Source: Lachnospiraceae bacterium
Lineage (GTDB): Bacteria > Bacillota_A > Clostridia > Lachnospirales > Lachnospiraceae
Length of the DNA stretch: 64,000 nucleotides
Assembly (NCBI GenBank): GCA_017626435.1
Contig: JAGAIR010000009.1
Span: 1-64,000, forward strand
Direction: 5' to 3'
Below are positions 49 through 40,382 of this stretch, one piece after another. Under the pieces are notes generated by a model. The model worked only from the letters and a program-made list of their open reading frames with translations. It had not been told where the DNA came from and made no database searches. The stretch's first letter is position 1. Each line of letters starts with the position of its first letter. Position numbers and translations under genes: made by a program.

Positions 49-1590
49 TTATAGGTTGACAACATAGGCAAATGTGGTATAATCTTCAAAGAAGATGAGG
101 TTCGGATACAGCACCGAATCCCTCACTATCCGGTGTTCATCCGAACACCTAAAAACTTCAGGATCGAAGTCAACAGAGTGGTTGTTGTCTGCATAGTTGT
201 AGGCAATAACCACTTTTTTGTTGTACACATAAACAGAATGCACAAACACATCCATGAGCCTCTGCTTGAAATCAGGATCAGACACATCACCCTTTTTGAA
301 GAGGTTGAGCCAGTACACAATATGATCCCTGGTGAGAGCAGGCTTTTGGATCTCTTCTTTGGCAATATGCACCTTCAGATCTTCAGCCTGGGCCTCCAAT
401 TCCATGAGCCTCTGTTTGGTGGTGGAGGTGATGATGCCCTGCTCAATGGCCTTCATAATGTTATTGATGGCCTTCTCTGTATCCTTCAGGGCAGAAATAT
501 GCTGCTCTAATCTCAAATTAACTGTATCCCTGGCCTGGATCTCCATCACACGATCTGCCAGGTATTCAATCACATCATCCTGAAGCACATCATTGATGGT
601 ATGATATACAACAAAATCCTCTAAATCATCCTTGCGGTATGTTTTCAGAGTGCATTTATCAGAGCCATGCTTCCGCTTCCGGGCCGCACATTTATAATAT
701 GAGTACCGGATCCCCTTCTTTCCATATCCGCATTCACCCACCAAAAGAGAGCCGCACTCCCCACAATATGCTTTGAGAGAAAGCAAATACTTCTCATCTG
801 CTTTATAGGAAGAAGCCTGGCCAACACGTTTGTGGAAAGTAGCATGAACAGCATCCCACAATTCCTGGCTGATAATGGCAGGGATTGGAATTGGAATGCC
901 ATCATAGAAGCAGCGGCCAATATATTTCTCATTTCTGAGCATGGTGTATATACCATTCTTTGTGATCAAACCGCCTTTTCTGTTCTTAACTCCCATTTTT
1001 TCAAGATTTTCCAATATTTCAACAGCAGTGCATCCGGCTGCATAATTTTCAAAGACATAACGAACAACCCAGGCCTCTTTTTCTTCAACCTGGTACATTT
1101 TATCAACGATTTTATAACCATACGGAGCCTGGCCGCTGACAGCATAACCCTTCAGGGCACTCTCCCGGTGGCCTCTTTTCACTTTTTGTCTCAGATCAGC
1201 CACATAATACTCAGCAAGGCCCTCCATGAGGCTCTCCAAAATGATGCCTTCAGGCCCATCAGGTATGATTTCCTTTGCGTAAAGCAAGCGGATCCCATGC
1301 CTTTTCAGTTTAATCTTATTCAGGGCAATCTCTTCACGATCTCTCCCGAATCGGTCTATTTTCCAAACTATGATGGAATCAAACTGTTTTTTCTCCGCAT
1401 CCCGGAGCATCCGGTTGAATTCCATTCTGTTCTCAAAATCAGAGCCGGAGATATGCCGATCCGCATATACATCCAAAACAGTGATACCATTTTCTTTTGC
1501 ATAGGCCATGCAATCCCTCACCTGGCCCTCAATACTCTGATCCGTTTGCCGAGGGCCGGGAGAGTATCTTGCATATATAACTGCATTCAT
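49..1590 (-). CDS. int: Large serine recombinase (phage integrase)
   Basis: Integrates and excises the phage by serine recombination. The 513-residue protein has the N-terminal resolvase domain (about 1-150) with YARYS, nucleophile Ser10 and neighbouring Arg8, then SIEGQ and the IDRFGR motif. A recombinase domain and a zinc ribbon (CGEC ... C ... C, about 273-310) follow, with a coiled-coil stretch after it. The start at 1590 is chosen because AGGAGG sits 7-8 bases before MNAVIYAR; an upstream in-frame start lacks such a site. The putative attP (100-146) lies inside the 3' end of the gene, so residues from about 489 to the stop are encoded beyond the crossover point. In an integrated prophage the tail would be replaced by whatever the host flank encodes. 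It is last in the leftward repressor-TM2-int operon. Confidence 0.95.
   Translation of the reverse strand: MNAVIYARYSPGPRQTDQSIEGQVRDCMAYAKENGITVLDVYADRHISGSDFENRMEFNRMLRDAEKKQFDSIIVWKIDRFGRDREEIALNKIKLKRHGIRLLYAKEIIPDGPEGIILESLMEGLAEYYVADLRQKVKRGHRESALKGYAVSGQAPYGYKIVDKMYQVEEKEAWVVRYVFENYAAGCTAVEILENLEKMGVKNRKGGLITKNGIYTMLRNEKYIGRCFYDGIPIPIPAIISQELWDAVHATFHKRVGQASSYKADEKYLLSLKAYCGECGSLLVGECGYGKKGIRYSYYKCAARKRKHGSDKCTLKTYRKDDLEDFVVYHTINDVLQDDVIEYLADRVMEIQARDTVNLRLEQHISALKDTEKAINNIMKAIEQGIITSTTKQRLMELEAQAEDLKVHIAKEEIQKPALTRDHIVYWLNLFKKGDVSDPDFKQRLMDVFVHSVYVYNKKVVIAYNYADNNHSVDFDPEVFRCSDEHRIVRDSVLYPNLIFFEDYTTFAYVVNL
56..83 (+). promoter_or_regulatory. Sigma-A promoter inside the att repeat (left copy)
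   Basis: TTGACA at 56-61, a 16-bp spacer and TATAAT at 78-83. It reads rightward, so in this arrangement it fires antisense into the integrase 3' end and through the attP core. Both hexamers are perfect, but part of the same DNA codes for the integrase C-terminus, so chance is possible. Confidence 0.5.
100..146. other. Putative attP of the serine integrase
   Basis: Imperfect dyad: GTTCGGAT (100-107) and CACCG (112-116) on the left mirror CGGTG (131-135) and ATCCGAAC (139-146) on the right. The centre is near 123-124. The two 125-bp repeat copies stop matching at 126, within 3 bp of this centre, as expected if strand exchange occurs at the central dinucleotide. Large serine integrases use attP sites of about 40-50 bp with this symmetry. 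Confidence 0.75.
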
Positions 1591-1724
1591 TGCAAAACCT
1601 CCTAAATGGGCATAAAAATGCCCGGAAACTGATTGAAAGCTCCGGGAGATAATGCTAAAATATATCTGCGACAATATACATGAGCATTCTCATGGGAGCC
1701 TGGGTGAAAACCTGGGCTTTTATT

Positions 1725-2294: not shown

Positions 2295-2786
2295 TTATGC
2301 CTCTTTTGCATTTTGTTCTGTGCCTTCTGTGGTATTCGAGGCAGATGAGCCCATGCTCTGTGCAGAATTGGAGATCTTTTTTATATATTGCTCTTCAGCT
2401 TCTTCCTTTGTAACTCTCCGGGCAGCAGATAATCTCTCTTTGAAATGTTGTATAAGCTGCTCACGAAGATCAGGATCAAGCTCAAAATAAGCCTTCAAAA
2501 TATTCAATTCCAAATCTGTGGCACTGTGCTGCTTTGCAAATTCATCCAGGCTGAAAGTTTCTGCCTGCACTTCCATTTCTCCATTGCCATTCAGCAACCA
2601 ATCCTCACTCACAGAAAACTCTTTGCAGATCAGTTTGATTAGGGAGAGTTTTTGCTCCGGCCTTGCCAGGGCATCCAATTCTATATTTTTAATAACAGAT
2701 CGGCTCACTCCCAACCTCTCACCAAAGGCTTCCTGAGAGAGTTTGTGCTTTTTTCTCAAAAGCCTGATTCTCTCATGCATTTCCAT
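2295..2786 (-). CDS. XRE-family phage repressor
   Basis: A 163-residue regulator with an N-terminal helix-turn-helix (RIRLLRKKHKLSQEAFGERL, then VSRSVIKNIE) over about residues 4-65, and an acidic helical C-terminus without a visible LexA-type protease motif. The start at 2786 is chosen because AAAGGAGG falls between it and the next upstream ATG. It is transcribed leftward from 2822-2850, divergent from the early promoter at 2883-2911, which is the layout of a lysogeny switch. It probably binds the repeats at 2886-2927. Confidence 0.85.
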   Translation of the reverse strand: MEMHERIRLLRKKHKLSQEAFGERLGVSRSVIKNIELDALARPEQKLSLIKLICKEFSVSEDWLLNGNGEMEVQAETFSLDEFAKQHSATDLELNILKAYFELDPDLREQLIQHFKERLSAARRVTKEEAEEQYIKKISNSAQSMGSSASNTTEGTEQNAKEA

Positions 2787-2821
2787 ATATGAACAACCTC
2801 CTTTGTGTTTCATGTGCTTTC

Positions 2822-26801: not shown

Positions 26802-27295
26802 AAGAGGCTGAAACAGTAACAGAGATCATATATGGGCTGTATCCGGTGTTTTTGGATGCCGGGTATGGCCCTTCTCTGTTTTGGGAGAGCAGCATTGATG
26901 AGATCAGTGATTTGCTTGAAAGCTATGCCCGAAGGAAGGAAAGAGAAGAGAAACACCGGGAGGCTGTGCTGAAGGATGAGATCATGGTTTTATTCAACCA
27001 GGCTCTTCAGATCGGGAATGTGGTTGGCAGGATGATGGATAAAAACACTCCAATCAAGATGCCAAGAGAATACTACCCGGAATTGTTTGGAACAACAGAA
27101 AACACAAATTTCACCGAGCAGGAGGCAAAGGGGGATGAGCACCAACTCAGCCCGGAGATGGAATTGCACAAGGCAAGAATGGATGATTTCATCTTTAGGC
27201 ACAACATGGCCATGAGAATGGCCAAGGAGCGAGGTGAAAGCAGTGGAAGGAATGACGTTGGAGAGGCTGCAAGTAATCATAGAGGCACAGACTAA
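26738..27295 (+). CDS. Tail assembly chaperone T extension (GT fusion by frameshift)
   Basis: About 185 residues added after a -1 shift at 26732-26738, giving a GT protein of about 332 residues. The T domain (YPVFLDAGYGPSLFWESSID, SYARRKEREEKHREAVLKDE) is helical and charged. No convincing start codon or ribosome site exists for separate expression; GTG 26846 has none. It overlaps the tape measure start at 27234. Helps fold and assemble the tape measure. Confidence 0.85.
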   Translation, partial: LRKSEQSDEWSTSGSEGRSPLKEAETVTEIIYGLYPVFLDAGYGPSLFWESSIDEISDLLESYARRKEREEKHREAVLKDEIMVLFNQALQIGNVVGRMMDKNTPIKMPREYYPELFGTTENTNFTEQEAKGDEHQLSPEMELHKARMDDFIFRHNMAMRMAKERGESSGRNDVGEAASNHRGTD

Positions 27296-30200
27296 GGCCT
27301 ATTATGAAGAGCTGAAGAAGGTGCAGCAGCAGACAAAATCAGCCACAAGTGCAGTGGAAGCTCAAACGAACAAAATAAAAAGTGCATTCAGCAAGATTGG
27401 AAAAGCAGTGGGCCTGGCCCTTTCCGTTACTGCAATCATCAGCTTTGGAAAGAGCTGCATTGAGTTGGGATCAACCCTCTCTGAGGTGCAGAATGTGGTG
27501 GATGTCACCTTTGGGGCAATGTCGGAAACCATCAACCGCTTTGCCAGGGATGCACTGGAAGAATTTGGCCTCAGTGAAACGAGTGCCAAAAAGTACACAT
27601 CAACAATGGGAGCCATGCTGAAATCCATGGGATTCACAACCCAGGCGGCTGCTGAAATGTCAATGGAAATAACCGGACTATCAGCAGATATGGCTTCCTT
27701 CTACAACCTGGATTCAGAAACCGCCTTTGAGAAGATCAGGGCAGGAATCTCCGGGGAAACAGAACCGCTGAAGCAGTTGGGCATCAATATGAGTGTGGCC
27801 AATTTGGAGGCCTTTGCACTCAGCCAGGGTATAACCAAGGCATACAATGCCATGACACAGCAGGAGCAGGCAATGCTCCTCTATAATTACCTGATGCAGG
27901 CAACAGCGGATGCTCAGGGGGATTTTGCAAGAACATCAGACGGATGGGCAAACCAGGTGAGAGTGCTCACAGAGAGATTCAATGCTCTGAAGGCAGCCAT
28001 TGGGCAGGGCCTCATTGCGGTGCTCACACCGGTGATCAGAGTGCTCAACAGTTTGTTGGCAAAGATCCTGACAGTAACAGATGCCTTCAGCAATTTCATT
28101 GCGAAGATAACCGGCAAGAATACCAAAACAACCACAACAGTGAGCGGCATTGGAGATGCAGCAGATTCAGCAGCAGGATCCATGGGTGATGTTGGGGATG
28201 CAACGGATGCAGCCGGCCAATCAGCAAAGAAGGCAGCAAAAGAATATGGCGGCCTATTGTCAATGGATGAGGTACATTCCCTCACAAAAAATGAGGGATC
28301 CGATTCAGGAGGCTCAGGCGGTGGCGGTGGAGCTTCAGGCGGTGGCCTGAGTGAAAATATTGTGGATGCAGCCACAGAAACAGATGATACCCTCAATCCT
28401 GCATTGGATAAGCTGATCACAAGGCTGAAGGAGTTGCAGGATCTTTTCAAGGCAGGATTTAAGGCCGGCATGGGGGATGTGGATCTGAGCGGCATCACAA
28501 AAGCGGTGGAAGGCATCAAAACGAGCCTGAAGAATATTTTTACCGCTCCCGAAGTAATAGGTGCAGCCAATAACTTTGCCAACACCCTGGCCTACACCAT
28601 TGGGCAGAATGCAGGGGCAGTGGCAAGTGTGGGTGTGACCATAGCAACAAATTTATTGGGGGGAATTGATAAGTACCTGGCAGGCAACCAGGGCCGGATC
28701 AAGCAATTCATTGTGAATATGTTTGATATAGGCTCAGAGATGGCCACGATTCAGGGAAATTTTGCCCAGGCAGCAGCCAATATCTTCTCTGTGTTCGGAG
28801 GAGAGAATGGGCAGCAAGTAACAGCAAACATCATTGGCATCTTCTCCAATGCAGCCATGGGGGTATATGAGCTCTCAGCGAAGTTGGGAAGGGATGTGTT
28901 GGATTGCATAACAAGGCCATTCATTGATAATCAGGGCAGTTTTAAAACAGCCATTGATGGGCTTTTAGGTGTAGCAGCCGGAGCCCTGGGAAATATCAAG
29001 CAAGTGGTGGATGATACAGTGGGGAAAGCCGGGGAGGTTTATGATGAACACCTGGCACCAATGTTCAGCTCACTGGCAGCAGGCCTCAGCAGCATCACCG
29101 GCACATTATTGGATGCCTACAACACCTATATCATCCCGGTATTGGAAGGGCTTCAGCAGAAGGTTGGGCCGCTCATTGATGAGCATATTCAGCCTGCGAT
29201 CAACAAGGCCCTGGAACTCATTGGCAAGATTGCTGATGCAGTGAAAGATATTTGGGAGCAAACCCTTGTGCCATTTATAAATTGGTTTATTGCCAATGTG
29301 GCTCCGATCATTGCAACCGCCCTGGATAAGGTGGGCACAGTATTCCTGACAGTAGCAGGAGTGATTTGGGATGTGATCAGCAGTGTATTGGATGCCCTGG
29401 GCGGCCTAATTGACTTCATAGCCGGAGTTTTCACCGGTGATTGGGAAAGAGCATGGGAGGGCATAAAATCCTTCTTCTCAGGCATTTGGGAAGCAATAAA
29501 GAGCATTGTGAGTGCTGTGTGGAATGCGATCAAGTCCATAGTATCAGCGGCAATCAGTGTGGTATCTTCAGTGATCAGCACTGTTTTGAATACCATCAAG
29601 ACGATTTTCAGCACAATATGGAATTCGATCAAAACCACTGTAAACACTGCGTGGAATGCCATCAAGAGCACGATCTCCACAGTGATCAACACCATCAGCA
29701 CGATCATCAGCACTGTGCTGAATACGATCAAGACCACATTCAGCACGATTTGGAACAGTATCAAAACAACAGTAACAACCGTTATCAACAGTATTAAAAC
29801 AACCATTTCCACAGTGATCAATGCTGTGAGCACTACAATCAGCACTGTACTGAATAGCATAAAAACTACTTTCAGCACAGTGTGGAACAGCATCAAAACC
29901 ACTGTGAGCACCATCATCAACAGTGTGAAGAGTACAGTATCCACAGTGATGGGATCCATTCAAACTGGAATCAGCACAGCTCTGAGCAGTATCAAAACGA
30001 ATTGGAGCAATGTGTGGACTAATATGAAAACCACTGTGGTGAATATTTTCAATGGCATTTGGAGCTCCATAAAAGGAGTGATCAACTCCATAATTGGCGG
30101 CATAGAGAAGATGGCCAATGGTGTGATTAAAGGCATCAATGGCATGATAAATGCTTTGAATAAGCTGAGCTTTGATGTGCCGGATTGGGTGCCGGAGATC

Positions 30201-30539
30201 GGAGGCAAAACCTTTGGCTTCAATATCCCGACTATCAGCACCATTTCCATTCCAAGACTTGCAACCGGTGGTGTGGTTGACCAGGCAACAGTGGCCATGA
30301 TCGGTGAAGCCGGCCAGGAGGCTGTGGTGCCTTTGGAGAATAACACTGGATGGATGGATAAGATTGCAGCACGAATTGGAGAGATCATATCTGTGAACCT
30401 TCAGGCTATTGTTGGAGAGATGGATGGCGGTGATGAATGGCAGACTATTCACACAGTTGTGAAACTTGACAGCAAGACACTTGTGGAGCAAACGGATAAA
30501 TTCAGAAGGAGAAAAGGCTATCAGATGGCCAATACATAA
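27234..30539 (+). CDS. Tail tape measure protein
   Basis: 1101 residues from GTG 27234 (AAGGAG four bases upstream; ATG 27252 possible). N-terminal coiled coil, hydrophobic helices (AVGLALSVTAIISF), a Gly-rich linker near 345-365 (GSGGGGGASGGG), then about 760-930 built of degenerate 11-residue units such as WNSIKTTV, INTISTIIS and LNTIKTTFS, and a C-terminal GGVVDQATVAMIGEAGQEAV typical of tape measures. Sets tail length and is ejected with DNA. The repeats in the DNA produce long spurious antisense frames. Confidence 0.95.
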   Translation: MKAVEGMTLERLQVIIEAQTKAYYEELKKVQQQTKSATSAVEAQTNKIKSAFSKIGKAVGLALSVTAIISFGKSCIELGSTLSEVQNVVDVTFGAMSETINRFARDALEEFGLSETSAKKYTSTMGAMLKSMGFTTQAAAEMSMEITGLSADMASFYNLDSETAFEKIRAGISGETEPLKQLGINMSVANLEAFALSQGITKAYNAMTQQEQAMLLYNYLMQATADAQGDFARTSDGWANQVRVLTERFNALKAAIGQGLIAVLTPVIRVLNSLLAKILTVTDAFSNFIAKITGKNTKTTTTVSGIGDAADSAAGSMGDVGDATDAAGQSAKKAAKEYGGLLSMDEVHSLTKNEGSDSGGSGGGGGASGGGLSENIVDAATETDDTLNPALDKLITRLKELQDLFKAGFKAGMGDVDLSGITKAVEGIKTSLKNIFTAPEVIGAANNFANTLAYTIGQNAGAVASVGVTIATNLLGGIDKYLAGNQGRIKQFIVNMFDIGSEMATIQGNFAQAAANIFSVFGGENGQQVTANIIGIFSNAAMGVYELSAKLGRDVLDCITRPFIDNQGSFKTAIDGLLGVAAGALGNIKQVVDDTVGKAGEVYDEHLAPMFSSLAAGLSSITGTLLDAYNTYIIPVLEGLQQKVGPLIDEHIQPAINKALELIGKIADAVKDIWEQTLVPFINWFIANVAPIIATALDKVGTVFLTVAGVIWDVISSVLDALGGLIDFIAGVFTGDWERAWEGIKSFFSGIWEAIKSIVSAVWNAIKSIVSAAISVVSSVISTVLNTIKTIFSTIWNSIKTTVNTAWNAIKSTISTVINTISTIISTVLNTIKTTFSTIWNSIKTTVTTVINSIKTTISTVINAVSTTISTVLNSIKTTFSTVWNSIKTTVSTIINSVKSTVSTVMGSIQTGISTALSSIKTNWSNVWTNMKTTVVNIFNGIWSSIKGVINSIIGGIEKMANGVIKGINGMINALNKLSFDVPDWVPEIGGKTFGFNIPTISTISIPRLATGGVVDQATVAMIGEAGQEAVVPLENNTGWMDKIAARIGEIISVNLQAIVGEMDGGDEWQTIHTVVKLDSKTLVEQTDKFRRRKGYQMANT

Positions 30540-30933: not shown

Positions 30934-33174
30934 ATGCAGTATGTGAGCAGTGAATACAAGGCAGCCATGAAGCAGGCGGCCAGGAATAAATCATATATGA
31001 GAATAAGCCTGGGCCTGATCAATCAGGCAGCCCAAACAGCAGCAGAAGTGCAGAGCGGAGGCTTCACCTATTTCTCAGACCTGATCAAACCGCTGAGCAG
31101 CGAATCTGTGAGCAGAGTGTATGCAACTTTTGAGAATGACTTTGCCAAGGTGGATCGGAGTATGTACTTCCTTCCAAGGGAGGGCTCAGGAAAGAGCTTT
31201 TATAACTCCGGCATCATCACAGAGGAGCTGTGTGGCCAGGGAGGGCAGCCTGCGGTGCTGATTAAGTTTAACACTGCGGATCCGGTGGATATAAAGGGCC
31301 TCACCCTGGAATTTGGGGATGCATACCCGGTGAAGTTTACAGTGCAGACGGATGAGGGAGAATTTGAATATGAGAATGGATCCTCTTCATTCAAAACAGA
31401 GGAAACCTTCAACAACACAACCTTTATGCGGATTGTGCCAACAGAGATGAAGAATGGGATTGCCCGATTCAGGATATACAATATCACCTTTGGGATCGGC
31501 ATCACATTTGAAAATGAGAAGATAGTGAGTGCGGAGCTGAAGAGCACCCTCTCACCAATATCAGAAAGCCTGCCAAGCATTGATTTTAATGTAACCATAG
31601 AGAATATGGATAAGTATTACAATGTGGATAATGATGATAGTGCCATCAACTACATGGAAACCGGGCAGGAGATGGAAGTGTATTATGGCTATACCCTGAA
31701 TGATGGCAGCATTGAGTGGGTAAAAGGTGCCACACTGTATATGCAGGAGTGGAGTGCGGATGATAAACTGGCCAAATTTGGTGCAGTGGATCTGTTTGAA
31801 TATATGCAGGATGAGTATAAAAGGGGCCAGTACCGGCCTGAGGGAATCACCCTCTATGATTTGGCTGTGGATGTGTTTGCAGATGCAGGGATCAGTGAGG
31901 ATGCATATTGGATTGATCCATACCTGAAGAAGGTGATGGTATATAACCCTCTTCCAATGGTGAAGCACAAGGAATGCCTTCAGCTCATTGCCAATGCAGG
32001 CAGAAGTGTGGTGATGCAGAATAGAGATGGAATCATCATGCTGAAATCATCATTTGAGCCTGAGAAGGCTGTGGAAGCTAACCAGGTGGCCGAATATGGA
32101 GATGTGCAGTGCCTCCTTCAGGAGGAAGCATATTCTGAGTATGCGGCATTTGAAAAGGACTATGCCCAGGTGGGCGGTGGCCAATATTTTATGCCGAGAG
32201 GCAGCAACTATATGCAAGTGGGGTATGTGAGCGAATCCATCAGTGATGCAGAGGGATATTTTGAAGAAAACCCGATCATCACCCTGAGCATGGAGAGTGC
32301 ATATACCTTTTACAATTTAACCCTGCTTTTTGGAAGCATTCAGCCAGTGGAGTTTGTAATTACCACATACAACAATGGAACCAAGCTGAAGAGCTTCAAG
32401 AGCAAGAGCATCACAGAGCGAACAGTGGTGAGCTATGATTTTATAGACACCGACAAGATCACCATTGAATTCACGAGGGCCAAGCCCAACAACAGAATCC
32501 ATCTGAGGAGGATCATATTTGGCGAGGAAACAGATTATGAGATCACATATGATGATCTGACTGCCACACCGAATGGAACCAAATTGGAGAAGGTGAAGGA
32601 GTTGAGGATGATCCGCACCATCTATGCGAAGGGAACTGAGCTGAAGGATCTCACGAGTGATGAAACAGTGTTGGCAGCAGGCCAGGCGGCAGAATTTGAG
32701 ATTGATTTTGGCAATGCTGTGCATGGGCTCTCTGTGGCGTGCCTCATTGATGATGTGGCTCAGGATTTTGGAGCGGAAATCACTGAAAGCAGCTCCTATT
32801 GGTGCCGGATCAGGATCTCAAAACCTCCGGCCCAGGATACAAAGGTGGTGCTCACAGTTAGAGGCTATGAGTACAACATCAGCACCTCCAACGAGGTGAC
32901 GAAGCTCAACAACACCGGCAGCATCCAAACATGGAACAATCCACTGATCAGCTCAGCAGAGGATGCCAGGGCCCTGGTGGAGTGGGTTGGCGAGTATTAC
33001 AAGGGCGGCAATCAGTATGAGTTAAAATACAGAGGAGATCCTATCCTGGATTGCAATGATCTCACCTATTTGGAGAGCCAATATGTAGCAGATCTCATTG
33101 TGAGATTGGAAGAGGTGGGCCTGAACTTTGCAGGGAGCCTGAGCGGAACATTGGTGGCAAGGAGGAAAATATAA
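30934..33174 (+). CDS. Large baseplate / tail protein with internal duplication
   Basis: 746 residues, beta-rich. Two copies of a jelly-roll-like module begin YATFENDFAKVDRSMYFLPR (about residue 53) and YAAFEKDYAQVGGGQYFMPR (about residue 407), each followed by an NSGIITEE/QVGYVSES turn and a hydrophobic strand region. The middle (SIDFNVTIENMDKYYNVDN, WSADDKLAKFGAVDLFEYM) resembles hub proteins. Probably the Tal/hub or a host-glycan-binding baseplate protein. Confidence 0.75.
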   Translation: MQYVSSEYKAAMKQAARNKSYMRISLGLINQAAQTAAEVQSGGFTYFSDLIKPLSSESVSRVYATFENDFAKVDRSMYFLPREGSGKSFYNSGIITEELCGQGGQPAVLIKFNTADPVDIKGLTLEFGDAYPVKFTVQTDEGEFEYENGSSSFKTEETFNNTTFMRIVPTEMKNGIARFRIYNITFGIGITFENEKIVSAELKSTLSPISESLPSIDFNVTIENMDKYYNVDNDDSAINYMETGQEMEVYYGYTLNDGSIEWVKGATLYMQEWSADDKLAKFGAVDLFEYMQDEYKRGQYRPEGITLYDLAVDVFADAGISEDAYWIDPYLKKVMVYNPLPMVKHKECLQLIANAGRSVVMQNRDGIIMLKSSFEPEKAVEANQVAEYGDVQCLLQEEAYSEYAAFEKDYAQVGGGQYFMPRGSNYMQVGYVSESISDAEGYFEENPIITLSMESAYTFYNLTLLFGSIQPVEFVITTYNNGTKLKSFKSKSITERTVVSYDFIDTDKITIEFTRAKPNNRIHLRRIIFGEETDYEITYDDLTATPNGTKLEKVKELRMIRTIYAKGTELKDLTSDETVLAAGQAAEFEIDFGNAVHGLSVACLIDDVAQDFGAEITESSSYWCRIRISKPPAQDTKVVLTVRGYEYNISTSNEVTKLNNTGSIQTWNNPLISSAEDARALVEWVGEYYKGGNQYELKYRGDPILDCNDLTYLESQYVADLIVRLEEVGLNFAGSLSGTLVARRKI

Positions 33175-33761
33175 TGCAATGGATTGAACCAAAAACAGAT
33201 TGGGCAACCCGAAGGGATGAAAATGGGAAGTATGCCGGTGATTATTTCAACATTGTGGACTATAACCGCATAAAGAACAATATTGAATTCCTGGGAGCGG
33301 TGGCCCGGCAGTTTTGGCCGGTATTTGTGAGAGCTATGCCGGATCGAAACCATGAAGAATATCCCTATGCGGATGAAATCAACACCCTGGCAGATAACCT
33401 GGAAGCAATCAATGCCTTTGTGGGCTGCGAGATTGGGCAGAAAACAGAGTATTCAGATAATGGTGCATTTATTGGCTTTGATGATCTGAACCGACTGGAA
33501 TCGGCCTGCCTGAAGCTCTATGAGGCAATGTGGAACCTTTACACAAGGCCGGTGAAGCTGCCAATCAGATTGGGCTCTCAGTATTATGCACTGAAGAATC
33601 CAAGAATCCCACCGAAGAAAACCAGGCTGCCTCTCAGATTGGGCATCCGCTTTGGTGGCACATATTATCCGCATGAGATGCCAAGCATCCCTCATGTGGA
33701 AACAAAACACAAGAAACTGCCAATGAGATTGGGATCTGAATATTTCCCATTCAAGAATTAG
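33174..33761 (+). CDS. Baseplate/fibre-associated protein with C-terminal triplicate motif
   Basis: 195 residues, ATG overlapping the preceding stop. The helical N-terminal two thirds is followed by three copies of a short motif: KLPIRLGSQYYALKN, RLPLRLGIRFGGTYY and KLPMRLGSEYFPFKN. Such short repeats often mediate fibre attachment. Directly precedes the DGR-variable tail protein. Confidence 0.7.
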   Translation: MQWIEPKTDWATRRDENGKYAGDYFNIVDYNRIKNNIEFLGAVARQFWPVFVRAMPDRNHEEYPYADEINTLADNLEAINAFVGCEIGQKTEYSDNGAFIGFDDLNRLESACLKLYEAMWNLYTRPVKLPIRLGSQYYALKNPRIPPKKTRLPLRLGIRFGGTYYPHEMPSIPHVETKHKKLPMRLGSEYFPFKN

Positions 33762-33774
33762 GAGGAAAAGTGAT

Positions 33775-34734
33775 ATGTCAATTTTGAAAACCGATTACAA
33801 GGATGATGTGATCAATGAACAGCTTGCCGCTGATCGTAAATTTGGAGAAGTGGCAAACGAAGATGGCACATTCAGCTATAATGATGTGACACCATACACC
33901 CAGGAGGGTGATGAATATGGTGCAGAGCAGATCAACCATGAGAATATGCATACCAATTTTGCGATTGAGGCAGCAGATCGTACCTATGAAGGAGTGGATC
34001 TCACAGTGAGATTTGCTGAAGAGATTGCCGGATATGCAAATGCATGGAGATGGATCAAGGCCCGACTTGCCGCAAGAAATGTGGATGGCCTTCATGTGGG
34101 AGATTATATCCCTATTTACATGGGCAATTATCTGATCAAGATGCAGATTGCCGGTATCAATACATATTACCGCACCACAGATCAGGAGTTGGGATGGCAC
34201 ATTGATTGGATCTCTAAAGATTGTTACCCTGATACAGTGCAGTGGTTCACTTCAAACAATAACAATGGTACAGCCGACAACCCGGCACCATACATGAAAT
34301 CCACAGTGAAGGAATTCCTGGATGGATTGGTGGCACAGCTCCCGGCAGAGGTGCAGGAAGTTATCAGCTCCAAGAGATTCCTTTTGGAGAGCAGATATTC
34401 TGCATCAGGAACCCTCACAGATTCTACATCCTGGGCATGGGCCGACCTGGGCAAATTGTGGATCCCTTCAGAGTATGAAGTGTTTGGATCCTGCATTTGG
34501 GCAACTAAGCCATGGGGTGCAGGCCAGGCGGTGCAGTATCCGATCTTTGCAAACAACTGGCTCAACCGCATCAAAGGGGCCGGTGACGGAGGAGGCCGGG
34601 CCTACTGGTGGCTTTTGTCTGTGTGCAGCGGCAACTCTACCTTTGCCTGCGGTGTCAGCAACGGTGGCGGTGCCAGCGGCGGCAGTTGCTCCTACGCTTT
34701 TCGGGTGCCGGTCTGCTTCCGAATCACAGAATAA
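33775..34734 (+). CDS. DGR variable protein 2 (tail fibre / receptor-binding candidate)
   Basis: 319 residues. Its position after baseplate genes suggests it is carried on the tail tip. The N-terminal about 200 residues are unique (NHENMHTNFAIEAADRTYEG, HVGDYIPIYMGNYLIKMQIA). The C-terminal part is shared with the protein at 9225-9857 (LWIPSEYEVF, RIKGAGDGGGRAYWWLLSVC, RVPVCF) and forms the C-type-lectin-like variable domain. Residues about 275-314 are encoded by VR2 (34596-34715). No signal peptide. DGR mutagenesis would vary about 13 surface residues and so probably host receptor specificity. The stop is followed by the target hairpin, then avd, TR and RT. Confidence 0.93.
   Translation: MSILKTDYKDDVINEQLAADRKFGEVANEDGTFSYNDVTPYTQEGDEYGAEQINHENMHTNFAIEAADRTYEGVDLTVRFAEEIAGYANAWRWIKARLAARNVDGLHVGDYIPIYMGNYLIKMQIAGINTYYRTTDQELGWHIDWISKDCYPDTVQWFTSNNNNGTADNPAPYMKSTVKEFLDGLVAQLPAEVQEVISSKRFLLESRYSASGTLTDSTSWAWADLGKLWIPSEYEVFGSCIWATKPWGAGQAVQYPIFANNWLNRIKGAGDGGGRAYWWLLSVCSGNSTFACGVSNGGGASGGSCSYAFRVPVCFRITE
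34596..34715 (+). repeat. DGR variable repeat VR2
   Basis: 120 nt aligned without gaps to TR (35239-35358). There are 18 substitutions, all at template adenines in AAC/AAT codons: 11 of 13 changed and two unchanged. Gly, Ser, Phe and Tyr dominate the result. Non-adenine positions are 100% identical. Confidence 0.95.
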
Positions 34735-34744
34735 TCAAAGACAA

Positions 34745-34768
34745 TCCCACCCCATCCCAGGGGTGGGA
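34745..34768. other. DGR target hairpin downstream of VR2
   Basis: TCCCACCCC (34745-34753) pairs perfectly with 34760-34768 across a 6-base loop. The stem sequence is the same as at VR1 (9869-9888), and 18 bases just upstream (TAATCAAAGACAATCCCA) are also shared. Likely the DGR target-recognition hairpin. Confidence 0.75.
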
Positions 34769-34796
34769 TACTTTATACAGAAAATGAGGTGAAGAA

Positions 34797-35207
34797 ATGA
34801 GTGTACTGGCCAGGCTGAGAGGGCCATCACAGATGGAAGTATTTCAATTAGCGGAGGAAATAAGAGCTGAGGCCACAAGGCTTGTGTGGAATACCAATGT
34901 GGTGCCAAAGGGGTGGAGAGATATATTTGCAAAACCAATGTGCAAGCTATGCCAAAAGCTCTATCACCATATAAGAAAAGCCAACTCCATTTGGGCCGAT
35001 ACAGAGGAGAGGGTGCAGGCAAGGAAGGATGAAACCCAGGAGGCAATCAACACCCTCCGGGATATTTATGATCTCATCAACTACATAGCCACCACTCTCC
35101 CGGTGGATTGGAATAAATTTGATAAGCTGCTCACTCTGATGCTGAAGGAAGAGGAAAAGCTGAAGAATTGGAAGGATGGAGTGAAGATAAGACAGAAAAA
35201 GAAATAA
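34797..35207 (+). CDS. avd: Avd-like DGR accessory protein
   Basis: 136 residues behind GAGGTGAAG. A basic four-helix-bundle protein (FQLAEEIRAEATRLVWN, MCKLCQKLYHHIRKANSIW, NTLRDIYDLINYIATTLP, MLKEEEKLKNWKDG) of the 23S-intervening-sequence/Avd type. Avd pentamers bind the reverse transcriptase and template RNA and are essential for mutagenic retrohoming. Its place between VR2 and TR is canonical. Confidence 0.88.
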   Translation: MSVLARLRGPSQMEVFQLAEEIRAEATRLVWNTNVVPKGWRDIFAKPMCKLCQKLYHHIRKANSIWADTEERVQARKDETQEAINTLRDIYDLINYIATTLPVDWNKFDKLLTLMLKEEEKLKNWKDGVKIRQKKK

Positions 35208-35238
35208 ATAATATGGGTTATTCTCTGTAAATTTTGCC

Positions 35239-35358
35239 CCGGGCCAACTGGTGGCTTTTGTCTGTGTGCAGCGGCAACTCTACCAATGCCTGCAATGTCA
35301 ACAACAATGGCAATGCCAACAACAACAGTTGCTCCAACGCTAATCGGGTGCCGGTCTG
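35239..35358 (+). ncRNA. DGR template repeat (TR), part of template RNA
   Basis: Non-coding donor of adenine-specific mutagenesis. In the VR frame it would encode 13 Asn codons (all AAC or AAT) at the variable positions, and it ends in TGA instead of the TGC of the VRs. It lies between avd and the RT, the usual order. The spacer 35359-35629, about 270 nt, is rich in inverted repeats (for example GATGTGTG with CACACATT) and probably belongs to the structured template RNA; I see no convincing gene in it. Confidence 0.95.
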
Positions 35359-35629
35359 ATTCACCACAAATATGATCCGACAAAGTAAGCCAATGAGGCT
35401 GAAATCTGTATCAGGTGGAGGAAGGAGGGAATAACCCTCACGCAAGTGTAAATTATCTCATCACCTTTTCCTGGTGTTCGTGGAGGTGATCTTGCTTGAT
35501 ATGGGTGGGTGTACGCTGCTTGCATGATGTGTGGCTGTGCCGCTCACACATTCCATACCCATACCATTATGCAGTTAGGATGGCACACTATAATATTGCT
35601 GTACAAGGGGGAAGTGAGCACATTTTATT

Positions 35630-36835
35630 ATGACAAGCGAAGAAAGATACCACGCAAGGTATTTGCGAAGGAAAGCAGCCAGGGAGGCCCACAGAAGGGA
35701 GAAACTATCACAATATGATGATTTCAACCGGGTGGCAGATTATAACTCCCTATACAGAGCATACAAAGATGCCCGAAAAGGAGTGACCTGGAAGGCCAGT
35801 GTGCAGAGGTATGGCCTGGATCTTTGCAAAAACCTATGCAAAACACATAATGCACTGATCGAAGGCAAGGATGTGAGAAAAGGCTTCATTGCTTTTGATT
35901 TGGTGGAGAGAGGAAAGCTGAGGCACATCCAAAGTGTGCATTTTGCGGAGAGAGTACCGCAAAAGAGCCTCTCTCAGAATGCTTTGATGCCAGTGTTATC
36001 CAACAGCCTGATCTATGACAACGGAGCCTCCCGGCAGGGAATGGGAGTGAGCCATGCCATTGACAGAACAACCCTATTTCTCCGGGAGTATTACAGAGAG
36101 CATGGAAATGAGGGATATGTGCTGCAAATTGATCTGAAAGATTATTTTGGCAGCATACCACATGAACCCATGAAGCAACTGATCCGGGAGAAATTCACAG
36201 ATGAGAAGATCATCCGGCTCACAGAGAGCTTCATTGATGCCTTTGCAGATGCAAAGATGCAGGAAGTGAAGAAATACAAGGATATTGCCATGGAATATGG
36301 TGATGAGTATGCCAAGGGCCTGGGATTGGGAAGTGAGATCTGCCAAATATGTGCAGTATCATATCCTGATAAAGTTGATCACTACATCAAGGAGAAGCTG
36401 CGGATCCGGCCATATGAAAGATATATGGATGATTCTTTTATCATTCACCCGGATAAGGAGAGGCTGAAGGAGATCCTGGAAGAGATCAGAGGAATATATG
36501 CATCATTGGGCATCAGGCTCAATGAGAAGAAAACCAAGATTGTGAAGCTCAGCCGGGGCTTCACCTTCCTCAAAACCCATTTCATTCTCACTGATACCGG
36601 CAAAGTTGTGAAAAGAATTTGCAGGGAATCAGTGACCAGGGAGCGGAGGAAACTGAAGAAATTTGCCAAACTGAATGCAAGAGGTGAGATGAGCTTTGAG
36701 CAGATCAGGGAGGCATACAACTCATGGAGAGGGTATGCAGCTCAAAAGGATGCATACAGAACCATCAGGAATATGGATGCCCTATTTAATAGGCTATTCA
36801 TAGAAAATTGGGTATATACCCCACAAGTAGCCTAA
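35630..36835 (+). CDS. DGR reverse transcriptase
   Basis: 401 residues. RT motifs in order: a basic N-terminus; VPQKSLSQNALMPVLSN; ASRQGMGVSHAIDR; LQIDLKDYFGSIPHE (catalytic Asp); KGLGLGSEICQICAV; YERYMDDSFII with YMDD at about 265-268; LGIRLNEKKTKIVKLSRGFTFL; and a short thumb. It lacks the maturase or endonuclease domains of group II introns. Copies TR RNA into adenine-mutated cDNA. The ribosome site is weak (GGGGG too far upstream), so the start is uncertain and expression may be low, or translated from a processed RNA. Confidence 0.95.
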   Translation: MTSEERYHARYLRRKAAREAHRREKLSQYDDFNRVADYNSLYRAYKDARKGVTWKASVQRYGLDLCKNLCKTHNALIEGKDVRKGFIAFDLVERGKLRHIQSVHFAERVPQKSLSQNALMPVLSNSLIYDNGASRQGMGVSHAIDRTTLFLREYYREHGNEGYVLQIDLKDYFGSIPHEPMKQLIREKFTDEKIIRLTESFIDAFADAKMQEVKKYKDIAMEYGDEYAKGLGLGSEICQICAVSYPDKVDHYIKEKLRIRPYERYMDDSFIIHPDKERLKEILEEIRGIYASLGIRLNEKKTKIVKLSRGFTFLKTHFILTDTGKVVKRICRESVTRERRKLKKFAKLNARGEMSFEQIREAYNSWRGYAAQKDAYRTIRNMDALFNRLFIENWVYTPQVA

Positions 36836-38123: not shown

Positions 38124-38441
38124 ATGGATGATTTATTATTTAACATTATCAAATTATTGGTGATCATTGTGATCACTGTCTTTATGAGATACGGAATCCC
38201 ACTCATCAAGCAGGCCATTGAGAGCTCCAAACTCAAAGGAGTGATGCAGTGGGTGGATGTTGCTGTGGCTGCATTAGAGCAGACCATCAGAGAATCCGGG
38301 GCCGGAAAAGAGAAAAAGGCCATTGTAACAGAATTTCTGAAGGAAATCCTCACAGAAAAGAATATCTCCATCTCTGATGATCAGCTTGATAAATTGATTG
38401 AGGCTGCTGTGTTCGCTATGAACAACAGCAAAGAGGAGTGA
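38124..38441 (+). CDS. Phage holin, LLH family
   Basis: 105 residues. One N-terminal membrane helix (NIIKLLVIIVITVFMRYGIP), then QWVDVAVAALEQTIRESGAG and an amphipathic C-terminus (EKNISISDDQLDKLIEAAVF) characteristic of LL-H-type holins. Permeabilises the membrane for the endolysin encoded just downstream. Confidence 0.88.
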   Translation: MDDLLFNIIKLLVIIVITVFMRYGIPLIKQAIESSKLKGVMQWVDVAVAALEQTIRESGAGKEKKAIVTEFLKEILTEKNISISDDQLDKLIEAAVFAMNNSKEE

Positions 38442-38443
38442 TC

Positions 38444-38758
38444 ATGTGGGGAGCACTGGCCATTGCCTATGTGGTGATGGCGGCAATCGTGTTCATATCC
38501 ATGATGGTGCTTTTGTGCCATGCATGGGCGAAAAGCAACGAAGAGGAGAGGATGATGGGTATGGAGTACCCGGAAAGTACAGCATCCGGCCTCCTGGCCA
38601 TTGCGGTGCTCTTCCTCACAAGCATCCTCATGGCAGTGCTGTGGCCTGCCTGCCCGGTGATCCTGATCGGAGTTTTTGTGTATGAGAAATTCCAGGAAAG
38701 ATGGCCGGAGCTCTGTGGAGTAAAGGAGGAAGAGGATGAACCTGGCACAGATAGCTGA
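38444..38758 (+). CDS. Two-helix membrane protein, lysis module
   Basis: 104 residues from ATG 38444 (GAGGAG upstream). Two transmembrane segments (ALAIAYVVMAAIVFISMMVL; GLLAIAVLFLTSILMAVLWP) and an acidic tail. A possible second holin or spanin-like partner; overlaps the endolysin start. Confidence 0.7.
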   Translation: MWGALAIAYVVMAAIVFISMMVLLCHAWAKSNEEERMMGMEYPESTASGLLAIAVLFLTSILMAVLWPACPVILIGVFVYEKFQERWPELCGVKEEEDEPGTDS

Positions 38759-40382
38759 GATTGCAGCGGAAATCATTTTCTCCCACGAAGGGAATTATGG
38801 CTCTGTGAATCGTGATGATAATGGAGCCATCTCAGTGGGCAAAGTGCAGTGGCATGGCAACCGGGCATTGAATCTGATGAGAACCATCTGCAAGGCCCTG
38901 GGAGCCTCACAGAGCACTTCCATTTTGGGGGTGGCACTTTATACGGAAATCAACGCAAAGGGCACCTCCTGGGCAAAGAGGAAGGCCACAGAGGCAGAAT
39001 CAGCCCGAATCTCCCAGGCATTGAGCACTGAGGAAGGAAAGAAGGCCCAGGATGCTTTGGCCCTGGCCGATATAACCGGATATTGCACCCATATCAAGAA
39101 TTTGGGTGTGACGGATCCGGCAGCAATCATTTTTATGGCCGATATTGAGAATCAGGGAGGAGCAGGAGCCTCAGCCCGGATCATCAAGGCGGCCAGTGGA
39201 AAGAACCTGGATGCACTGTATGCTTCAGCGAAGGTGGATCGTGTTTTCAAGAAATACATGGCCCGGAGGGATGCAGTGTATGCAGAAGTGAAGCAGTACG
39301 AAGAAAAGAAGGAGGGAACACAGATGGCAGTATTGATCGGCCATGCAAGTATTGATGAAAATGGCACAATTCAGGGGAGAACAGCCGGAGATCAGACCGC
39401 AAAAGAGATCTGCACAAGAAGTTGGTACAATAAGCCATGGAATGTGTACCTGGAATGCCTGGATGATAACCTGGCAGAAAAGGCAGCAGCATTCATGGAG
39501 CAGATCTGTGCAGATGCAGATTTTGGATATTCTCAGCCAAACAGATGGAAGGGGTACAACTCCATCATCAACAATGGCCGCAAGGTAGCAGGGGCAAAAG
39601 GTGATTTTGATTGCAGCTCCCTGGTGCTGACTTGCTATATTTTGGCAGGGTTATCCATAGCAGCCACCGGATACACCGGGAATATGAAGAGCATCCTGGT
39701 GGGCACCGGTAAATTCAAGGCATACACCGCCTCAAAATACATATCCTCAGATGCCTATGCAAAAAGAGGTGGCATATATCTGAGCGAAGGATCCCATGTG
39801 GTTATGGCTCTGAGTAATGGCTCAAAGGCCTCTGCAAGCTCCTCAGGCGGCTCAGGAGGGGCTTCATCCAATGAAGGCAATAAAAACTATGTCGGCAAGG
39901 GAATAGGCACCGCCACAGCCAAAACAAATATGCATGTGAGGGCAGGAAGTGACACCGGCAGCAAGTCCATTGGTGGAGTGACCAAGGGAGCCTCTGTGGA
40001 GGTATTGGAGAAGCTCAGCAATGGATGGCTCAAAATCGTATGGCCGGGAGCTTCATGTGGCTATGCCTACACAAGCAACAGATCCGGGAAATATTATACT
40101 TATGTTACCAATGGATCTGTGGGATCCGGCAACACATCCCTGAAGCCAGTGGCAGCAAAGAGCAAGAATAATGCCCTGGCCGGAACCTACACAACAACAG
40201 CCAACCTCAACCTGAGAGCAAAACCGGGTGTGCTGAAGGCTGATAATGTGATCGCTGTAATGGATAAAGGAGATAAGGTGCAGAACTATGGATACTATAC
40301 CATGATCAATGGTGTGAAGTGGTTATATGTGGCCTATGAGAATTTAACCGGATATTGCAGTGAGGAATATCTCAAAAAATAA
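38736..40382 (+). CDS. Multidomain endolysin (lysozyme-like + NlpC/P60-like + two SH3)
   Basis: 548 residues behind AAAGGAGG. Residues 1-190: lysozyme/chitosanase-like fold (IIFSHEGNYGSVNRDDNGAI, SVGKVQWHG). About 195-370: cysteine peptidase domain with GDFDCSSLVLTCY as nucleophile region and SEGSHVVMA supplying His, of the NlpC/P60 type. A Ser/Gly linker follows, then two SH3b-type wall-binding repeats (TKTNMHVRAGSDTGSKSIGG-like segment near 400; TTTANLNLRAKPGVLKADNV near 490). Cuts glycan and peptide bonds for lysis. Confidence 0.9.
   Translation: MNLAQIAEIAAEIIFSHEGNYGSVNRDDNGAISVGKVQWHGNRALNLMRTICKALGASQSTSILGVALYTEINAKGTSWAKRKATEAESARISQALSTEEGKKAQDALALADITGYCTHIKNLGVTDPAAIIFMADIENQGGAGASARIIKAASGKNLDALYASAKVDRVFKKYMARRDAVYAEVKQYEEKKEGTQMAVLIGHASIDENGTIQGRTAGDQTAKEICTRSWYNKPWNVYLECLDDNLAEKAAAFMEQICADADFGYSQPNRWKGYNSIINNGRKVAGAKGDFDCSSLVLTCYILAGLSIAATGYTGNMKSILVGTGKFKAYTASKYISSDAYAKRGGIYLSEGSHVVMALSNGSKASASSSGGSGGASSNEGNKNYVGKGIGTATAKTNMHVRAGSDTGSKSIGGVTKGASVEVLEKLSNGWLKIVWPGASCGYAYTSNRSGKYYTYVTNGSVGSGNTSLKPVAAKSKNNALAGTYTTTANLNLRAKPGVLKADNVIAVMDKGDKVQNYGYYTMINGVKWLYVAYENLTGYCSEEYLKK

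Follow-up and report, generated by a model that had tools for sequence, protein, structure and literature searches.

A diversity-generating retroelement in a Lachnospiraceae prophage, with RT-2 RNA as the probable spacer domain of its template RNA

The first 64,000 nucleotides of contig JAGAIR010000009.1 from a Lachnospiraceae bacterium (GCA_017626435.1), referred to here as the window, carry a target gene, a hairpin, an Avd-like gene, a template repeat (TR) and a reverse transcriptase (RT) gene in a row on the + strand. The locus raises the question of whether these parts make up a complete diversity-generating retroelement (DGR), as the original prediction had claimed, and of what role belongs to the RNA between the TR and the RT gene. 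The parts were found in the predicted order and at the predicted coordinates (Table 1), and the window very probably holds a complete DGR, carried by a Firmicutes-type prophage, with RT-2 RNA as the spacer domain of its template RNA. The DGR itself is an ordinary member of a known, common kind; the newer point is the link of DGRs with the RT-2 and RT-14 RNA families.

A search of the whole 64 kb with Rfam at curated cut-offs produced a single match, RF03077 'RT-2 RNA', for which the Rfam type label is only 'Gene; sRNA'. The match scored 108.3 bits (cut-off 40) and covered the full model (1-222) over 261 nt. It begins 8 nt past the TR, and its 3' end at 35631 meets the RT start codon at 35630. 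The Phage_DGR RNA (RF03022) was not found, RF03077 being the only family at an E-value of 1 in 34700-35700. Among records found through their RT, RT-2 RNA was present in 17/17, 36/38 and 29/29 of three sets, and the two misses were L007, with a remote RT (32% identity), and L025, whose locus begins inside the RT gene. Searching five genome groups with the RNA only gave matches in 5/397, 6/396, 2/153, 9/192 and 7/297, with 5, 6, 2, 6 and 5 over the Rfam cut-off, some of them already known from the RT search. The result for control genomes (0/14) says little.

The position of the RNA was followed in 101 RT-2 loci (L087-L187, near-duplicates included), where a pair of TR and variable repeat (VR) was accepted when at least 80% of the mismatches were at A. 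Such a pair was found in 89 loci, always with the VR upstream (89/89), and the TR ended -9 to +18 nt from the RT-2 start in 81 of them. An RT gene was on the same strand in 97/101 loci and began past the RT-2 start in all 97. Among the loci with no accepted pair, L175, L180, L181 and L186 were below the Rfam cut-off (the first three also had no RT), L118, L125, L142 and L158 had lost their upstream side at a contig end, the pair of L162 and L164 was visible in larger loci (L051 and L049), and L127 and L178 fell just below the rule, 77-78% of the mismatches of their pairs being at A. In a few loci an extra segment separated the TR from RT-2 RNA, of 78-141 nt in L130-L134 and L155, 24 nt in L154 and 37 nt in L156. 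Twenty loci over the cut-off were new to the RT searches (L087, L105-L107, L109, L145, L168-L174, L176-L178 and L182-L185), and all 20 had an adjacent adenine-type TR; it was accepted by the strict rule in 19, ending -9 to +17 nt from the RNA, and by a relaxed rule in L178. An RT was present in 19 of the 20, and the sequence of L168 stops 366 nt downstream.

Overall, RT-2 and RT-14 RNAs appear to be spacer domains of DGR template RNA and counterparts of the Phage_DGR RNA of Bordetella phage BPP-1. A reading that we consider improbable accepts the DGR and takes RT-2 RNA as mainly a cis-acting 5' leader that regulates RT translation, its adjacency to the TR being a matter of gene order. The meeting of the RNA with the RT start codon would fit such a leader, but the 5' end of the RNA is tied to the TR in the 81 of 89 loci given above, the equivalent slot in BPP-1 is occupied by the Rfam Phage_DGR RNA, and recruitment of the RT-Avd complex is ascribed to the BPP-1 spacer (accessible part of PMC12875486).

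The repeat finder returned one long pair in the window, 34596-34719 and 35239-35362 (124 nt, 85% identical). Over the 120 nt of VR and TR, 18 positions differ and all 18 are TR adenines, as had been predicted; with 29 of the 120 TR positions being A, the chance of this is about 3e-14. The further claim that 13 variable codons are all AAC or AAT in the TR was right for the codons in the target frame, but only 11 of them are changed in the VR, the codons at 34633 and 34660 being still AAC. Extension to 124 nt brings a 19th mismatch, A35359 > C34716, and the substitutions are then 12 A>G, 6 A>T and 1 A>C.

This last mismatch is a fixed difference between the initiation of mutagenic homing sites (IMH* of the TR, IMH of the VR) and not a product of mutagenesis. 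TR G-A-T faced VR G-C-T in 57 of 59 non-redundant RT-2 elements (40, those with CTGAT, in a script count where every VR had C, and 17 by eye), and the exceptions, L089 and L165, had C in both copies. Because free mutagenesis would vary the base, A35359/C34716 is read as a mark of donor and recipient like IMH*/IMH, and the exchange would therefore end at or 5' of G35358.

The pattern recurred in relatives. An adenine-type repeat pair was found by self-comparison in 82 of 87 sequences (86 RT-found loci and the window, some contigs counted twice; at least 75% of mismatches at the A of one copy), and in all 5 loci with no pair the RT lay less than 1000 nt from the locus start. In the 59 elements 869/912 mismatches were at TR adenines, a share that is partly by construction as pairs were accepted only at 80% or more, and 48 of the 89 pairs had 100% of their mismatches at A. 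A comparison of VR with VR is free of this selection, because the VRs are compared with each other. It was made on eight sister prophage records (L100-L103, L139, L159, L161 and L167) with three closely similar TR variants, in which L100 and L139 carry an identical VR and may be one strain. The sister VRs were polymorphic at 21/26 columns where the TR is always A and at 5/5 columns where the TR variants differ, compared to 3/93 never-A columns and 3/360 positions just upstream of the VRs. The check for strain variation confined to TR adenines, proposed with the original prediction, was thus borne out on sister elements, and natural variation at adenine sites is seen in these, not in the window element itself. 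Together with the adenine-only mismatches and the DGR-type RT, this supports the DGR reading.

That variation evidence comes from sister elements and not from reads of the source sample leaves some room for a decayed DGR whose VR diversity was left by past activity. We regard decay as very unlikely, given three open reading frames (ORFs), the YMDD of the RT, the presence of TR, IMH*, RNA and hairpin, and sister elements with nearly invariant flanks yet very different VRs.

Two patterns within the adenine changes were recorded separately. In the 59 pairs, TR adenines before G were changed in 11/108 cases (10%) versus 39-56% in other contexts, for which enzyme context and codon selection are both possible sources. 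All 7 double changes of neighbouring adenines in the window use one base twice, and same-base doubles in the 59 elements numbered 66/115 for AAC (48.6 expected) and 40/79 for AAT (26.0 expected). Correlated mutagenesis of neighbouring adenines is not claimed, since codon selection would fit the excess equally well.

For the RT, a PDB search with a profile of the enzyme and 22 relatives placed the BPP-1 DGR RT (8ub7) first (1.9e-24). Group II intron RTs came behind it at 7.1e-12, and no entry named retron-type did better than 9.1e-10; the BPP-1 enzyme was the only DGR RT structure in that search. In this form, the comparison called for in the original prediction favoured a DGR enzyme, and the RT was not closest to retron or group II intron lineages. 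The nearest relatives with DNA examined had 78-80% identity and came from Lachnospiraceae genomes and IMG/VR contigs. An origin of the RT in a retron, group II intron or defence system, with a coincidental repeat, can practically be dismissed: the RT does match defence-associated RT (DRT), group II and retron models, the NCBIfam matches being far under curated cut-offs (group II 79.3 versus 300 bits), but the BPP-1 enzyme tops the PDB ranking and the adenine-only mismatches are far beyond chance and recur in relatives. In a tree of the RTs the RNA labels clustered. A branch with SH-aLRT 100 had 19 Phage_DGR rows as one of its sides, and the RT-14 rows lay beside these; across the midpoint root were the RT-2 rows, together with four rows lacking an RNA label. 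The tree was made by a quick method from 70 of 134 rows, with SH-aLRT and no bootstrap, and included no retron or group II RTs.

The Avd-like protein was 26% identical to the annotated Avd of Roseburia phage Shimadzu, its four-helix model matched the fold of BPP-1 Avd, and it is counted as the accessory Avd of the element. The target has a DUF6273 domain at residues 157-317 and a lectin-like predicted model, and no Mtd-type chain was among the fold matches listed for that model. In 28 aligned homologues, taken from 120 listed among 583 found, 9-15 of the 16 VR residues with A at position 1 or 2 of the TR codon differed from those of the window, compared to 0-9 of the other 22-23 VR residues. 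The domain, the lectin-like model and the place after the tape measure and tail genes suggest a tail-tip receptor-binding protein, as had been inferred before.

In the 5' part of the window RT-2 RNA lie AGUA (35384-35387) and GAA (35401-35403), enclosed by a covarying pair, 35382-35405, that is left open in the structure drawn by Rfam. The bulged-G (loop E) module has AGUA/GAA as its letter pattern. In 53 of the 59 sequences both motifs are exact, and in 94% of these the nucleotide two positions 5' of AGUA and that two positions 3' of GAA formed a standard pair, versus 39% in shuffles, which ignore relatedness; the types were A-U 19, C-G 19, U-A 7, G-C 4 and G-U 1. Covariation extends to pairs of the outer stem. 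A heuristic search, which rewarded the very pair it then displayed, placed a similar AGUA/GAA-type element at the 3' terminus of Phage_DGR RNAs, with no candidate in 8 of 89 loci; as the module is common among RNAs, the resemblance is a lead.

Two further ideas on the spacer were tried and rejected. A circular permutation was suggested by CUUCUUGCAUGGC, shared by BPP-1 and RT-2 RNA with its order relative to the AGUA/GAA module swapped; it was rejected because the listed BPP-1-type rows (of 89) show no conservation of CUUCUUGCAUGGC. The second idea pairs CUGAUUC at the end of the TR with GAAAUCAG in the spacer; by eye, many sequences agree with it and the window (GAAAUCUG) does not. The suggestive double change in L089 is unmatched by L091, and the pairing is not claimed.

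Other spacer RNAs were surveyed in 15 phage stretches, L007 and L025. RT-2 RNA was found in 5 of the 17 (160-175 bits), RF03022 Phage_DGR in BPP-1 and RT-14 in Bacillus phage BalMu-1; the remaining 10 had no such RNA over the cut-off, L201 and L025 having nearly no upstream sequence. The RT relatives L190 (phage nd12), L198 (FP_Brigit), L191, L192 and L007 had no Rfam RNA over the cut-off upstream, and perhaps these carry further, undescribed classes of spacer RNA. Three Vibrio/Pseudoalteromonas phages had RT-14 scores of 35-42 bits, short of the cut-off of 48.1, and in all three a TR was adjacent. A blind search for RT-14 RNA in 239 genomes (phylum of G001) passed the cut-off at 9 places, which belong to 8 genomes, with an RT at 9/9 and an adjacent TR by the strict rule at 6 and by a relaxed rule at one more (L303, 8/11 at A). 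The other two places, L301 and L305, are neighbours in a single odd locus. This locus (G1727 contig C59, 7394-8135 and around) combines a single RT with a pair of RT-14 RNAs, separated by 593 nt, and with several TR-like repeats, including one exact duplicate of 105-112 nt; mismatches between copies are at all bases, and it looks like a DGR with several templates. A search of 239 genomes (phylum of G015) gave no RT-14 match and shows no absence.

We are moderately inclined to regard RT-2 RNA as a second architectural class of DGR ribonucleoprotein, with AGUA/GAA directly 3' of the template, an RNA class that tracks the RT clade and the GAU/GCU mark. If so, Rfam families labelled only 'RT-2 RNA' and 'RT-14 RNA' gain a function, and at stake is how a DGR RT selects its template and start point. 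The link of both families with DGRs would supply dozens of natural spacer RNA variants with covariation (59 non-redundant here) and a means of finding DGRs by their RNA, independently of the RT gene, and that of RT-2 RNA predicts a cDNA start at or upstream of G35358. The RT-n families reportedly stem from Weinberg and others (2017, Nucleic Acids Research). A literature search for 'RT-2 RNA' with reverse transcriptase and motif found no paper, and the link may already be published.

In phage DGRs a hairpin with a 4-nt GRNA loop lies past the VR and is required for BPP-1 homing, and the BPP-1 spacer folds and recruits the RT-Avd complex, with an internal adenine priming cDNA synthesis (accessible parts of PMC3240598 and PMC12875486, respectively). 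A candidate hairpin or cruciform of this kind was found in the window at 34744-34769, with no 4-nt GRNA loop seen on its + strand. A perfect stem of at least 7 bp within 70 nt past the VR was present in 52 of the 59 elements, compared to 1.3 expected from mononucleotide shuffles. By its gene order, the window element would be read as a single transcript running from the Avd-like gene through the TR and RT-2 RNA to the RT gene. Judged from its position and from BPP-1, the RT-2 spacer would fold, bind the RT-Avd complex and place the 3' end of the TR for primed, adenine-error-prone cDNA synthesis. The fixed A (TR, IMH*) and C (VR, IMH) just 3' of the exchanged stretch would distinguish donor from recipient and may also bar a stop codon from the target.

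Several points weigh against the reading of the locus as a DGR with an RT-2 spacer. The evidence consists of sequence comparisons and structure models. The genome groups of the RNA search were centred on RT-found genomes and were not random, the TR ended 24-141 nt from the RT-2 start in 8/89 loci, RT-2 RNA was absent in L007 despite an RT and a TR/VR pair, and it was not over the cut-off in 12 of the 17 surveyed sources (15 phage stretches, L007 and L025). For the Avd-like protein, BLASTP gave no alignment at all with BPP-1 Avd and there was no significant sequence match in the PDB; helical bundles match easily in fold comparison, which limits the model match. Finally, since the RNA modules stand in a different order, details of the BPP-1 mechanism may not carry over.

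Table 1. Coordinates of the DGR and of context genes in the window
Feature	Position	Strand	Basis or remark
Large serine recombinase (likely integration gene)	49..1674	-	context gene, left end
Helix-turn-helix (HTH) repressor-like gene	2295..2813	-	context gene, left end
Tail tape measure protein	27234..30539	+	phrog_1535, 3.4e-168
DGR target gene, 319 aa	33775..34734	+	ORF; DUF6273 domain; VR at C terminus
VR	34596..34715	+	repeat comparison with TR
IMH-like end of VR, TGCTTC	34714..34719	+	C34716 faces IMH* adenine of TR
Inverted repeat after VR	34744..34769	+	10-bp stem, 6-nt loop; candidate hairpin/cruciform site
Avd-like gene, 136 aa	34797..35207	+	identity to Shimadzu Avd; four-helix model
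TR, 29 adenines	35239..35358	+	repeat comparison with VR
IMH*-like end of TR, TGATTC	35357..35362	+	A35359
RT-2 RNA (Rfam RF03077)	35371..35631	+	Rfam model match
RT, 401 aa	35630..36835	+	RVT_1, YMDD
Holin	38124..38441	+	context gene
Endolysin-like protein with SH3 domain	38736..40382	+	context gene

The surroundings agreed with the predicted phage module in having tail and lysis genes, but prophage is the better term in view of the serine recombinase, the HTH repressor-like gene and a step in GC content. From left to right the order was recombinase, repressor-like gene, tape measure, pre-target genes, DGR, holin and endolysin. The GC content in 2-kb steps was 0.43-0.50 up to 40 kb and 0.33-0.43 beyond, the value falling at about 40 kb (0.495 to 0.358). 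Host-like genes (an EAL/GGDEF protein, ABC transporters and a PucR regulator) begin at about the same place; together the two changes suggest the right-hand prophage end at about 40 kb. In addition, the gene upstream of the target (33174-33761) has imperfect repeats of a GCCAATSAGATTGGG-like unit at its end (33560-33741).

Among known systems, the BPP-1 DGR shares with the window the order of target, Avd, TR, spacer RNA and RT, an adenine-type TR/VR, a hairpin past the VR (accessible part of PMC3240598) and a related RT and Avd, whereas its spacer RNA belongs to another Rfam family (RF03022 versus RF03077), its Avd is not alignable by sequence, and its AGUA/GAA-type module, as located by the heuristic search, adjoins the RT gene while that of the window adjoins the TR. 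Roseburia phage Shimadzu (LR596903) has an annotated tail fibre, Avd and RT in the same order, RT-2 RNA at 144.9 bits and 17/18 TR/VR mismatches at A (L110), but its RT is 53.5% and its Avd 26% identical, and its DGR lies amid P2-like tail genes. The Faecalibacterium phages Lelie, CP11, Roos and Pioen likewise have DUF6273 targets with C-terminal variable regions (accessible part of PMC11792537) and FP_Taranis has RT-2 RNA at 175.1 bits, although the RTs of Faecalibacterium phages are about 30-32% identical and FP_Brigit has no RT-2 RNA over the cut-off. The Lachnospiraceae prophages L055-L061 and the IMG/VR contig L010 share an RT of 79-80% identity, a 124-nt TR and RT-2 RNA with the window, and differ from it in their VR alleles and in an RT-2 match of 279 nt versus 261 nt.

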